Assembly (NCBI RefSeq): GCF_003605635.1
Contig: NZ_QMDW01000002.1
Span: 62,001 to 126,000, forward strand
Source of the DNA: Halonotius pteroides
GTDB lineage: Archaea > Halobacteriota > Halobacteria > Halobacteriales > Haloferacaceae
Length of the DNA: 64,000 bases
Reading direction: 5' to 3'
The notes under the pieces were generated by a model. That model had not been told where the DNA came from and did not search any database. It saw only the letters and a program-made list of their open reading frames with translations. Positions within the stretch are counted from its first letter, which is position 1. Each line of letters starts with the position of its first letter. Positions 6,633 to 11,109 of this stretch are shown piece after piece. Position numbers and translations under genes: made by a program.

Positions 6633-6908
6633 TAAGTCTCAGATGTGGTAGAAGCTGCTCTGTTGAATAGAGGTGATCTTGAGAGCAGATAGAATACGAA
6701 GAGTATATAACCGGTTGAGAGGCGTGTTCTGAAAGAGATTTTACTTTATTCCAGCCTATGATTACTATTCAGCAAAAATTAGAATTGGGTAGAAACCGAA
6801 AGTCTGGCAGGGGGTAGTTACATCTCGTATGAGAGCGAACTTTTTGTAATTTTCTGAGTCAGTAGAGTGAATATAATAGGTAGTAAGCACGATATGTGGT
6901 GAAATGTT

Positions 6909-7841
6909 ATGACAGAGAACAACGATAGTACTTCGAAAGAAGATAGCCATCTTGAACCGGATGGGTCGAGTGAAAAGGAAAGGCAAAAATCAATATCTGT
7001 GACGCGACGCGGTGCCCTACAGAAGTCTGGGGTAGCTGGGCTATTAGGCACACTTGGATTTACACAATCAGTCGGTGCAGAAAATGGTATTACAGGAAAT
7101 AAATCTCCTACGGCAGCCGAAGAATTAGATGAAGAAAATGTCAAAAAACTACGTAAAGAACTAAGAAAAAACAAAAAAGAGACAGATGCTTCGGTGGATA
7201 AGACTCATAAAGAGAAGCTTTCAGGAGTGTCGACCCAAGACGTGATTGGATCTATCCCGTCAATCGGAAAGAACGAATCGTACGCCACACAATCGGCAAA
7301 TTGGGAAGCAGGCGATTACAAATTTGATATTCCACCCGCATTTGCAGAGTATGATACCAAAACATCTGGTGTCGTCAACAAGGCGTTTGCAGGTGCATAC
7401 ATCAATTACATTGGCGCAGATAATCCGTGGGCATGGGCAGAAACTGGACTTCGGTTCGATGTCAAAGATTCTGGCCGCTTTGAGGTTAGTAGCCGGGGGC
7501 AGTACGCCGGTGAATTAGTTGCAAGTGGGACTGCAGCCTCAGAGATCGAATTCAACATTCATTTGATTGATTTGACGGATGAGGAGGAAGTTCTCCGATT
7601 ACGTATTTGGAATCAAGGCTCACTCATTGTCCCGATTCCAGGGCAAACGCGTGACGAAGCATATCGAATTAGTGGAGAAGCTGATTTAACAGCGGACCAT
7701 AGTTACCTCCTTGTCCCTAGAGTTCGAACTTCTGCGGTTGTCATAGGAACAGGATCTGCCCAGTCAAATGCTTGGACTGGTCGATGGAATTTTGACGGAT
7801 TCTTCCAATGGTTTAACTTGTCATTGTCGTGGCTCGGGTAG
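6909..7841 (+). CDS. Tat-exported protein of unknown function
   Basis: A 310-residue protein I do not recognise. The N-terminus is charged, then a twin-arginine signal (SVTRRGALQKSGVAGLLGTLGF, residues ~32-53) ends at VGA. Residues 75-110 are Lys/Glu-rich and probably helical; the remainder (~120-310) is rich in alternating hydrophobic and aromatic residues, with WAWAETGLRFDV and ending NLSLSWLG, which suggests a beta-sandwich. It has no cysteine. Codon use is AT-richer than the surrounding F420 genes, a sign of acquisition. A small membrane protein follows after 46 nt, which could be a partner or immunity protein. Confidence 0.75.
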   Translation: MTENNDSTSKEDSHLEPDGSSEKERQKSISVTRRGALQKSGVAGLLGTLGFTQSVGAENGITGNKSPTAAEELDEENVKKLRKELRKNKKETDASVDKTHKEKLSGVSTQDVIGSIPSIGKNESYATQSANWEAGDYKFDIPPAFAEYDTKTSGVVNKAFAGAYINYIGADNPWAWAETGLRFDVKDSGRFEVSSRGQYAGELVASGTAASEIEFNIHLIDLTDEEEVLRLRIWNQGSLIVPIPGQTRDEAYRISGEADLTADHSYLLVPRVRTSAVVIGTGSAQSNAWTGRWNFDGFFQWFNLSLSWLG

Positions 7842-7887
7842 TAATACGACGCATATTTTAGTATATTTCCCAATAAAAGAGCCAAAT

Positions 7888-8247
7888 ATGAAAACAAGAG
7901 ATAGAGCACTTGCATCCCTGTTCCTCGGACTTGTAGGTGCCTCATTTATTACAGCCAGTATTATTGTTGGCACAGTCTACGGACTGGTGATTGCGGTTGG
8001 CCTCTTCGTTGTCCTCACGTATGTGAGCCCATCAAAAAGAATAAAAACGATCTCGTTCGAACTGAGCTATACCTTTGCATTAGCTTGTGTTGGCGGACTA
8101 CTCTCACTACTCGTATTCTCGCAGCTTGCCGGTGGATTCCCGGTCGACCACCCCCAGTTCTGGGCCGGAACGGTAATAATAATTGTTCTCACGGTGGCTG
8201 CCGGATACATACTCTCTCCGGAAGCAACCTCGATTGGCCGTTCCTGA
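7888..8247 (+). CDS. Small four-helix membrane protein
   Basis: A 119-residue protein with four predicted transmembrane helices (about residues 10-28, 31-46, 58-76 and 90-110) separated by short polar turns. No family recognised. Start chosen at ATG 7888, preceded by an A-rich stretch; an earlier in-frame ATG lies inside the preceding gene in another frame. It lies 46 nt behind the Tat-exported protein gene on the same strand and is probably cotranscribed with it. It is convergent with the winged-helix regulator, with only 34 nt between stops. Confidence 0.65.
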   Translation: MKTRDRALASLFLGLVGASFITASIIVGTVYGLVIAVGLFVVLTYVSPSKRIKTISFELSYTFALACVGGLLSLLVFSQLAGGFPVDHPQFWAGTVIIIVLTVAAGYILSPEATSIGRS

Positions 8248-8281
8248 ACAGTTCGTCTCGATTCGTCGGATTTTTGATCGC

Positions 8282-9055
8282 TCACAGCTTGGAAATAAGC
8301 TCTGCGTCTTCTCGGACACGGTTATATTGGTCAGTTGCCCAGTCGAGTGCATCGTCGGTATCGTTGATGATGATGCCTTTGACGCTTTGATCGGTGTGCA
8401 CGATGATCCCTGCATGATTCTCGTCTGAGATCCACAACGAGAAGCTCACCGGGACATCACCATGATACAATGTTGTGTTTTCATCTGATAGTACATTATC
8501 TGTTTGATTGGGATTGATTGTGCGGAGCCGTTCAAATATCTCTGGCTGAAGAACGAGTTCTAATTGGGCGTCGCTACCTGCCGTGGCATGACGATAGAAC
8601 GAATCCGCGTAGCCAGACATAGCAAGCGCAGTTATGCCTCGGATATGGGTTGCGGATTCGACGGCATTAAGTAAGATCTGTATGACATCATCGGGAACCG
8701 GAGCAGTTGCGATATGAACCTCTGCATCGATGAGGAAGTGACGGTCGACGGGTGTCGTTCGAGGTAATTCGTTGATTACCGGAGCAGCATCGGTAAGGCT
8801 CTCTAACCCCTCCTTGTAACGAGTGTGGTGGTTAAATGTACATTGGCCGAGAGGAGTGGGCTGCCACTCACCGTCAAGATATTCGACAAGATCAGCATGT
8901 TCGAGGTCGCGGACGATATCATCAAGTGTCGAACGTGGAATGTCTAGTGATTCGACGAGTTCTCGCTTCGCTTGGGGTTGGTTGCTGAGTGCACGGAGAC
9001 ACTCGCATCGTTTCAGGAGGACATCCGCGAGATCGAGTGATGCAGAGCGGGGCAT
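8282..9055 (-). CDS. Winged-helix transcriptional regulator (haloarchaeal HTH/DUF1724 type)
   Basis: A 257-residue regulator. Residues 10-70 are a winged helix-turn-helix: LLKRCECLRALSNQPQAKRELVESLDIPRSTLDDIVRDLEHADLVE, then a wing. The C-terminal part (~95-257) resembles the methanogen/halophile output domain (DUF1724-like), with an IHIATAP-like start and the GIIINDTDDALDWATDQY segment. It is the only regulator in the AT-rich island and the closest candidate to control the two exported-protein loci. The effector is unknown. It is more GC-rich than its neighbours, so it may have a different origin. Confidence 0.8.
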   Translation of the reverse strand: MPRSASLDLADVLLKRCECLRALSNQPQAKRELVESLDIPRSTLDDIVRDLEHADLVEYLDGEWQPTPLGQCTFNHHTRYKEGLESLTDAAPVINELPRTTPVDRHFLIDAEVHIATAPVPDDVIQILLNAVESATHIRGITALAMSGYADSFYRHATAGSDAQLELVLQPEIFERLRTINPNQTDNVLSDENTTLYHGDVPVSFSLWISDENHAGIIVHTDQSVKGIIINDTDDALDWATDQYNRVREDAELISKL

Positions 9056-9649
9056 GACATGGGATAAATGAATGTTATCTAACTTAATATTTGCTTAATT
9101 TTTGAATATTGAGCGCATTACATACTATAATCAAGGATAATAATTAAGATACTGCCAAAGATTGGAGAACCGTGATTGGATAGCAGGTTGCTAATCGCCA
9201 GACAGCGAAGGGTCATACTTTATTTGCCAGATCTCATATCTGATCGAATGTAAAATAGTATTGCCTATATGGAGTTTAGATTAGACGAACACCAATTTAG
9301 AGAGTATGATTACACTTATATATTATGATATAAAAATAAAACAGATTTATGTACCTTATCAAACAAAAAATATCGGAGTAGAGCAATTTAGGCTGCTGTT
9401 TTCGAACGAGAGACCTGCTGTCCAACTACGGAAAACCAATCATACGCCATCTTTCATCACTGAAGAATATATGGCTTGAATATCTACTTTTCAACGCCAG
9501 CGAACTAACTTATTCATCTAACTATATTCCAGAATTCCCTGTAGACTGCTTCTGCTGTCTTTATTTATTCAACATTAATACGTTAACATGCAAATTTGAG
9601 AGATATTATTTGATTTCTTTCTTTACTAATAGAATAATATGTCTGATTT
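9056..9649. other. AT-rich stretch without a gene
   Basis: About 590 nt, markedly AT-rich with many TATA-like runs. I see no open frame with haloarchaeal coding character, no tRNA and no clear terminal repeat. The end next to 9055 must hold the promoter of the winged-helix regulator. It probably represents decayed or foreign DNA within the island. Confidence 0.6.
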
Positions 9650-9829
9650 CTAATTATAATAAAATAATAACGCAACCCCAATTAACGTTGTTGTTATACC
9701 AATGACACTCACTATATTTAGGTTAATTAATCTAGGATATCCAATCCAAGGAAGCAAATACGAAGCAGTTGAGTGAATGATCAGTCCTAGTACGATTATG
9801 ATTCTTGGAATGTGTTTTTTCTTCATCAT
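9650..9829 (-). CDS. Two-helix membrane microprotein, possible immunity protein
   Basis: A 59-residue protein starting with MMKKKHIPR, followed by two hydrophobic helices (about residues 9-28 and 36-57) with a short IGYPRLINL loop. The positive N-terminus predicts it facing the cytoplasm. The frame stays open up to 9901, but only a TTG is available there, so the double ATG at 9829/9826 is preferred. It sits 72 nt downstream of the halocin-like gene on the same strand, a typical place for an immunity or export helper gene. No sequence family is recognised, so this role is inference. Confidence 0.55.
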   Translation of the reverse strand: MMKKKHIPRIIIVLGLIIHSTASYLLPWIGYPRLINLNIVSVIGITTTLIGVALLFYYN

Positions 9830-9901
9830 AAATTTCAGATTTATGTTGTGAGTTTGATTAGTAATGTAGAAAATTTTGTTTAACTCCAAAATTAGAACCA
9901 A

Positions 9902-10756
9902 TTATGGTTCCAAGTAAGCTTGGAAATCAAAGTCGCAGTTCACACCAAATCCATCAACCTCACAGGAAGTTTCTAGGCACACAATGATAGTAGCACCAAG
10001 ATTTACTTCGGTTTCGTCTTCAATAGTATATGCGACAGAACAACCACCGCTTCCGGCAGTAATTGTAATAATAGCTATTCCCAATCCAGAGGTCGTTGGC
10101 TCGGGATAGACGGCCAGCGCGAGGCCACCTAAGTAGAAAACAGCCTCACAAACCCAGTTTGGTGGCGTATCGTCAAGGCCGAGAGGGTAATCCCATGTGA
10201 AATCACAATTATTTTGAGTTGTGATAGAATTGCTATCAGAATTTATGTCTAAGTTATCAGACCATTCTTGGCCTGTAATAATACCATACTCTTCAAGTTC
10301 CGATGAACGACTCTGATTATCCCCATTATTAGTAATCGATGGGCTACTTTTGTACACATTCGTTCCGATAGTCGCGGAAACATGCGTACCATCCTCAAGA
10401 TCACGGATGACGACATCCGCTTTGATGTCCTTCTCTTCTTCAAAAGGTGTCCGAAATAGACGGAAACTCGCATTACCCTCTGAAGACTCAATTATATACG
10501 CATCAAGATCACTGGGTGTGACGGTAATATTGTATTCTTTTTTGAGGAACGACCGCATCTGCTTAACAGGTTCAGCAGACCAGACCTTACCGGTTTGCTG
10601 GTCTCGGATGGATGCATCCTGTTTGGTTCGCTTGAGACCAAGTCCATCATCAAAGTTATCAGACTCACTTGCAGAGGCTACTCCACTGAAAGCTGTGCCT
10701 GCAAACGCTGAACCCCCGATACATTTTATCAATTTTCTCCGAATGATTTCATCCAT
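9902..10756 (-). CDS. Tat-exported halocin C8-like precursor candidate
   Basis: A 284-residue preprotein. The N-terminus IIRRKLIKCIGGSAFAGTAFSGVASA is a Tat signal with an expected cut near residue 30. Residues 31-170 are a charged polar domain. The last ~105 residues are hydrophobic and glycine-rich with six cysteines (NNC, WVC, GGC, IVC, TSC, VNC). Halocin C8 is made from a Tat-exported precursor of about this size that carries an N-terminal immunity part and a C-terminal cysteine-rich hydrophobic peptide. The layout matches; I cannot show sequence homology. It lies in the AT-rich island, followed by a membrane microprotein. Alternative: an unrelated secreted protein. Confidence 0.6.
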   Translation of the reverse strand: MDEIIRRKLIKCIGGSAFAGTAFSGVASASESDNFDDGLGLKRTKQDASIRDQQTGKVWSAEPVKQMRSFLKKEYNITVTPSDLDAYIIESSEGNASFRLFRTPFEEEKDIKADVVIRDLEDGTHVSATIGTNVYKSSPSITNNGDNQSRSSELEEYGIITGQEWSDNLDINSDSNSITTQNNCDFTWDYPLGLDDTPPNWVCEAVFYLGGLALAVYPEPTTSGLGIAIITITAGSGGCSVAYTIEDETEVNLGATIIVCLETSCEVDGFGVNCDFDFQAYLEP

Positions 10757-11109
10757 GGTTTGTTACCACATATTCATATTATAATACATTTATATTCATG
10801 CTACTGGTTCGGAAAATACCGAATTAATCGTATCCTTACGAGAAGCAACTACCGCTACCCAGTAATTGAGATAGCACTTACCGAACACAATAAAACAGCA
10901 TAAGAACCACAGTACCCAGCCGATTGTTTGCGTATGAATACATTCCCAAGCGCGACGATGATGTTCAAAATGGGCTCTCATAATAGAAAGAAAACTTGTA
11001 GCGGCTCTTCGTCTATTATTGACCAGCATACGATTCGGCAGCAGAATTTCTATTACGATCTATCAATCTTATTTGGAAGTTGGTATATCTCTCAAGACTA
11101 TGGGATTAG
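10757..11109. other. AT-rich intergenic region at the island edge
   Basis: About 350 nt between the halocin-like gene and cofG. On the minus strand a TATA-like run at about 10775-10795 fits as promoter of the halocin-like gene. A 77-codon minus-strand open frame (10796-11029) exists but is not convincing. Base composition changes sharply to GC-rich at about 11110, where cofG ends. Confidence 0.55.

Follow-up and report, generated by a model that had tools for sequence, protein, structure and literature searches.

A candidate halocin-like precursor gene pair with a halocin C8-like N-domain and an unrelated six-cysteine C-terminal module on a low-GC island of Halonotius pteroides

We consider it likely, though well short of certain, that two adjacent genes in the window (the whole 64,000-nucleotide stretch of Halonotius pteroides DNA analyzed here) form a bacteriocin (halocin-like) precursor operon built like halocin C8, with a HalI-like propeptide, a new cysteine-rich effector, and a membrane immunity protein. 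Few archaeal bacteriocins have been characterized at the gene level; Makarova and colleagues are said to have expanded the halocin C8 family (mBio 2019) and to have predicted further archaeocins. The features discussed below are as follows.

9902..10756, minus strand: secreted precursor, 284 aa, with an RR signal, a HalI-like N-domain, and a six-Cys C-terminal module
10667..10756, minus strand: signal region, residues 1-30, with RR at 6-7 and a hydrophobic core, by direct reading
10232..10654, minus strand: exported N-terminal domain, residues 35-175, from hhalign homology to HalC8-type N-domains and AF2
10214..10225, minus strand: ITTQ, residues 178-181, a V/I-S/T-T-Q junction motif right before the Cys module and a possible processing region
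9905..10213, minus strand: C-terminal module, residues 182-284, six Cys, the predicted effector peptide, from homologue alignment (AF2 is unreliable there)
10097..10105, minus strand: PEP turn, residues 218-220, invariant, at the center of a hydrophobic hairpin (about residues 200-243), from alignment and profile searches
9650..9829, minus strand: two-helix membrane microprotein, 59 aa, predicted immunity or helper protein, from conserved pairing and a dN/dS of 0.23
10787..10796, minus strand: TATA-like element AATATAAATG, 31-40 nt upstream of the precursor ATG, by direct reading
6633..11109, no strand: low-GC island of 4.5 kb between convergent cofH and cofG, 42.6% GC versus 62.5% in the rest of the window

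The precursor has the layout that a first-pass annotation of this DNA had claimed for it, with 284 residues, a polar middle, a hydrophobic, Gly-rich C-terminus carrying six cysteines, and a 59-aa open reading frame (ORF) beginning 72 nt past its stop. Residues 31-177 are polar (GRAVY -0.86) and free of Cys; residues 178-284 have a GRAVY of +0.31, contain 16 acidic residues and 11 Gly, and lack both Lys and Arg. The C-terminal cysteines, at positions 184, 203, 239, 260, 265, and 274, are invariant in the three closest homologues, and a seventh, at position 12, falls within the signal. Hydropathy maxima at 200-218 and 223-243 flank the PEP turn. The Tat signal that was also claimed fared unevenly: the RR motif and hydrophobic core are present, and the motif RRxxLKxIG is common to the homologues, but the family models (Pfam and NCBIfam) found no Tat signal in the window protein and matched its relatives weakly. 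Taken together, the motif and the homologues lead us to infer a signal of the Tat type. Searches in Pfam, NCBIfam, PADLOC, PDB sequences, and Rfam returned nothing informative, and the AF2 model of the precursor had no Foldseek matches at an E value of 0.001 or below.

The link to halocin C8 lies in the N-terminal domain. For comparison, HalC8-type precursors were picked by their C-terminal TIGR04449 domain alone, and the signal was removed before alignment with hhalign. The N-domains of the window family then matched those of the HalC8 type with a probability of 87-92% and an E value of 7e-7 to 4e-6 over 92-102 columns. Adding three further precursors raised the probability to 93.5%, the strictest signal cut lowered it to 76%, random 25-sequence subsets gave 67-93%, and the E values across the main cuts ranged from 2e-7 to 4e-6. 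Controls gave 0.8% for a reversed alignment and 0.02-0.13% for cross-domain comparisons, and a single column shuffle among 300 scored above the real alignment, as an 11-column artefact. Identity between the two groups is about 11%. When sequences were tested singly, those of the window, G028, and G031 beat 400 of 400 of their own shuffles and the piece from G113 beat 397; those of G182 and Natrialba hulunbeirensis, two of the six members, clearly failed to do so. We therefore regard the N-domain as likely to be a remote homologue of the HalI (immunity) region of halocin C8 precursors. Of the profile searches against halocin families proposed in the first-pass annotation, those with curated models left the precursor unmatched; it is the profile-profile comparison that ties its N-domain to the halocin C8 type. 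PF22862 (Hac8_like_N) did not match the window precursor over its cut-off, and it also scores below cut-off on genuine HalC8-type precursors (21 bits for L023, 13.7 for L006).

The predicted structure is compatible with this assignment. AF2 places helices at residues 48-59 and 62-75 of the N-domain, followed by strands, with pLDDT values of 68-83 at residues 41-90 and 51-68 at residues 91-140; within the precursor it is confident only near the helix-helix region (48-75) and the strands that follow. A passage in PMC11509114, citing Mei 2008, names a helix-loop-helix at the HalI N-terminus as essential for immunity, and the modelled helix-helix region would fit that element. Structure prediction of the C-terminal part, which the first-pass annotation had suggested (residues 178-284), was run as well, but AF2 gave the C-terminal module no confident fold, either in the full-length model or alone, and we can therefore assign it neither a helix hairpin nor a beta fold.

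Homologues of the precursor occur in six other haloarchaeal genomes. Among 391 Halobacteria genomes searched, five had full-length relatives, namely Haloferax larsenii JCM 13917 (G113), Natrialba hulunbeirensis JCM 10989 (G163), G182, G028, and G031; a search of 125 genomes from the family of N. hulunbeirensis added G423. The window, G113, G182, and G163 form a six-Cys subtype, and G028, G031, and G423 a more divergent one in which the number of Cys is six to eight. In G226 a C-terminal remnant persists, accompanied by a microprotein. The precursor is absent from the other searched genomes of the window's genus and of Haloferax, and the distribution of the family is sparse and patchy. Short C-terminal matches in G134, G216, and G274 were not kept as relatives, since they seemed to belong to "DIDVQATF" proteins, an unrelated kind. 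The window and H. larsenii are about 65-69% identical in the C-terminal part and 49% in the N-terminal part. In the H. larsenii gene (L083, 10001-10859), a frameshift separates the stretch that encodes the N-domain from the one that encodes the C-terminal module; it may be a sequencing error or decay.

A two-helix ORF of 58-70 aa lies 72-113 nt past the precursor stop in six of the seven family loci; at the remaining locus, G028, no downstream microprotein was detected. In the window this ORF is 59 aa long if translation starts at the first ATG (9829) and 58 aa if it starts at the second. Homology is recognizable among the microproteins of the window, G113, G182, and G163: the other three are 22-29% identical to that of the window, and all have a YxLP turn. 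When G182 is compared with N. hulunbeirensis, the precursor has a dN/dS of 0.42 and the microprotein one of 0.23, which indicates purifying selection on both genes between these two relatives. Because the six cysteines are conserved, the pairing recurs, and both genes appear to be under such selection, the gene pair is more than chance.

The pair was probably gained recently, together with the island in which it sits, as the same site is nearly empty in sister genomes. The flanking genes, which we take to be cofH and cofG from reading two radical-SAM proteins, are separated by about 4.48 kb of 42.6% GC DNA in the window, compared with gaps between matches of about 59 (G066), 32 (G232), 72 (G391), and 580 nt (G392). 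With three sisters at 32-72 nt and one at 580 nt, the site may be an insertion hot spot. A proviral origin was considered and dropped as unsupported, since the viral scans were empty; searches of plasmids and viral contigs gave no matches. The island also holds a FilR1/HVO_A0261-type regulator and a second RR-signal protein with a membrane-protein neighbor: an exported protein of 310 aa (6909-7841, plus strand) is followed by a predicted membrane protein (about 7888-8244, plus strand). This pair had no homologues in 212 Halobacteria genomes and only a weak match to a Tat signal family; it could be another secreted-effector/immunity-type pair.

Small membrane-protein genes are also found beside HalC8-type precursors. 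An ORF of at most 150 aa with two to four helices lies directly downstream at 25 of 60 such loci, compared with 8 of 928 random zones (0.9%) and none of 60 upstream zones, and the encoded proteins have two, three, or four helices and differ in size. This, with the recurrence of the microprotein in its own family, supports the earlier idea that the latter belongs with the precursor, where it probably protects the producer as a membrane immunity protein. A competing account keeps the bacteriocin precursor and makes the microprotein an export or maturation helper, or the second peptide of a two-part bacteriocin. It deserves consideration, as a HalI-like N-domain can already give immunity and so short a microprotein looks like a two-helix peptide; we nevertheless find it somewhat unlikely, since the microprotein has no cleavable leader, and varied membrane proteins occupy the same place at HalC8-type loci, the pattern that immunity proteins would show if they were suited to a range of effectors.

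Taking the gene pair as a bacteriocin operon, we envisage the following course of events. The precursor would be exported by the Tat route, probably folded, with its HalI-like domain (helix-loop-helix plus strands) serving as a propeptide that also protects the producer. Outside the cell, a cut near residues 178-183, around ITTQ, might free an acidic peptide of about 101-106 aa, in which the six cysteines, presumably as three disulfides, would staple the hydrophobic PEP hairpin. This peptide could act on the membranes of competing haloarchaea, while the 59-aa microprotein would remain in the producer membrane and most likely add to immunity. ProC8, the halocin C8 precursor, is described in a passage of PMC11509114 as Tat exported and as giving rise, on cleavage, to HalI plus a peptide of 76 aa. 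The junction motif V/I-S/T-TQ falls at most 25 aa before the first Cys in eight of its nine occurrences in the HalC8 set (about one would be expected there by length), in three of three in the window family, and in two of two elsewhere.

The bacteriocin reading has points against it: no halocin sequence model matches, the N-domain match is remote, G028 lacks the microprotein, and the H. larsenii copy is frameshifted. Furthermore, no protein homologous to the C-terminus has a proven activity, and the PEP hairpin is shared with small membrane proteins whose role may be unrelated. With the C-terminal profile, the same PEPx[ST]xxG segment between hydrophobic flanks was found in small membrane proteins, in a giant protein, and in a candidate Ntox35 protein. 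Such a stretch may be a general membrane-hairpin motif, and it therefore supports membrane contact, not toxicity as such. One could accordingly read the precursor as a nontoxic secreted or surface protein, structural or signalling in role, whose C-terminal hairpin associates with the membrane and which has the microprotein as its partner. The occurrence of the hairpin in small haloarchaeal membrane proteins and the giant protein agrees with this, as does the lack of a known activity; so does the C-terminus, which shows conservation and not hypervariability when the window is compared with H. larsenii (69%, versus 49% N-terminally). We think this reading unlikely, as the N-domain is homologous to that of halocin C8 precursors, and a sparse, patchy distribution (six other genomes) and an island location better suit a conflict gene. 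No homology was found between the precursor and any nonantimicrobial exported protein, the finding named at first pass as one that would tell against an antimicrobial role.

Among the proteins with this hairpin, L094, L095, L096, and L098 are small membrane proteins from haloarchaea in which a two-helix hairpin of the form PEPx[ST]xxG is conserved, and the three that were scanned belong to no Pfam family. The candidate Ntox35 protein (L008 1456-2523 / L092, in G193) has a PEPVSSGTG hydrophobic hairpin, perhaps a common membrane-contact segment, ahead of a candidate toxin domain that scores 21 bits, below its cut-off. It resembles the window C-terminus in the PEPxSSGxG hairpin stretch (profile E value of 6.5e-6, in one genome), but it is larger than the window precursor and no HalI-like domain was seen in it. 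The resemblance may be hydrophobic convergence.

Two further explanations fare worse. For HapP (HFX_0892) of Haloferax mediterranei, it is an N-terminal fragment, freed by an extracellular protease, that is active (PMC12893001). By description HapP is, like the window precursor, haloarchaeal, secreted, and thought to need extracellular cleavage, and the two helices predicted in the window N-domain would allow this route, one that haloarchaea do use, to apply here; we hold it very improbable, because the window N-domain has its homologues in HalC8-type N-domains, which are known to act in immunity, and the conserved disulfide-type module sits at the C-terminus, whereas the active part of HapP is N-terminal. 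That the precursor is a halocin C8 orthologue in the strict sense, with some cysteines lost, would agree with the matching layout, the matching length, and the relatedness of the N-domains, but it is scarcely credible and was rejected. The C-terminal domains are not detectably related (hhalign probability of 0.1-0.2%); TIGR04449 (halocin_C8_dom) matches 47 of 391 genomes, but neither the window protein nor its genome; and the window module is set apart by its Cys spacing and its PEP hairpin. Its Cys pattern is also a trait conserved across the family and not a sign of decay.

We conclude that the bacteriocin precursor predicted here is, as judged from sequence against halocin C8, a new variant beside it, in agreement with the first-pass view of a new type. 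The two have in common a secreted protein of about 280 aa with an RR signal, a remotely homologous N-domain, a polar middle, and a Cys-rich, hydrophobic, Gly-rich C-terminus, as well as a small membrane-protein gene that is often downstream in the wider family and a V/I-S/T-TQ junction in part of it. They differ in the C-terminal module, which in the window has six Cys instead of ten, about 105 aa instead of 76, an unrelated sequence with other Cys spacing, a PEP hairpin, and no Lys or Arg. Unlike the window locus, the canonical HalC8 loci (L025-L028) have no downstream microprotein. A second predicted effector type behind a halocin C8-like N-domain is thereby defined, and the exact pieces for expression are given above.

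The N-domain may have a wider use. The family profile also picked up, by their N-termini, further precursors that have an RR signal but end in Cys-rich tails of quite another kind. Their N-domains match those of HalC8 at an hhalign probability of 97%; as these precursors had been chosen for a resemblance to the window family at the N-terminus, with the signal left in, the additional tails are a lead, not a census. The window precursor has the same traits, namely a HalI-like exported N-domain and a Cys-rich C-terminus with a small membrane-protein gene downstream. It is tempting to propose, at slightly less than even confidence, that archaea have a polymorphic bacteriocin system with the HalI-like N-domain as its common front end (immunity or propeptide). 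Many Cys-rich effectors with no relation to each other would be joined to it, among them the C8 type, the PEP-hairpin type of the window, and several others, often with their own small membrane immunity gene, and the system would move among haloarchaea on small islands. Should a single HalI-like domain serve effectors that are unrelated to one another, immunity through it could not depend on recognizing C8 and nothing else. Two alternatives are thereby opened to testing: HalI as a dedicated antitoxin, or HalI as a general propeptide, with specific immunity left to the small membrane proteins.

Eight precursors (L058, L060, L062, L064, L068, L074, L079, and L081) combine an RR signal and a HalI-like N-domain with Cys-rich C-termini that differ among them, and are possible new bacteriocin types. 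A three-helix ORF lies directly downstream of the precursor in L068, L074, and L081.
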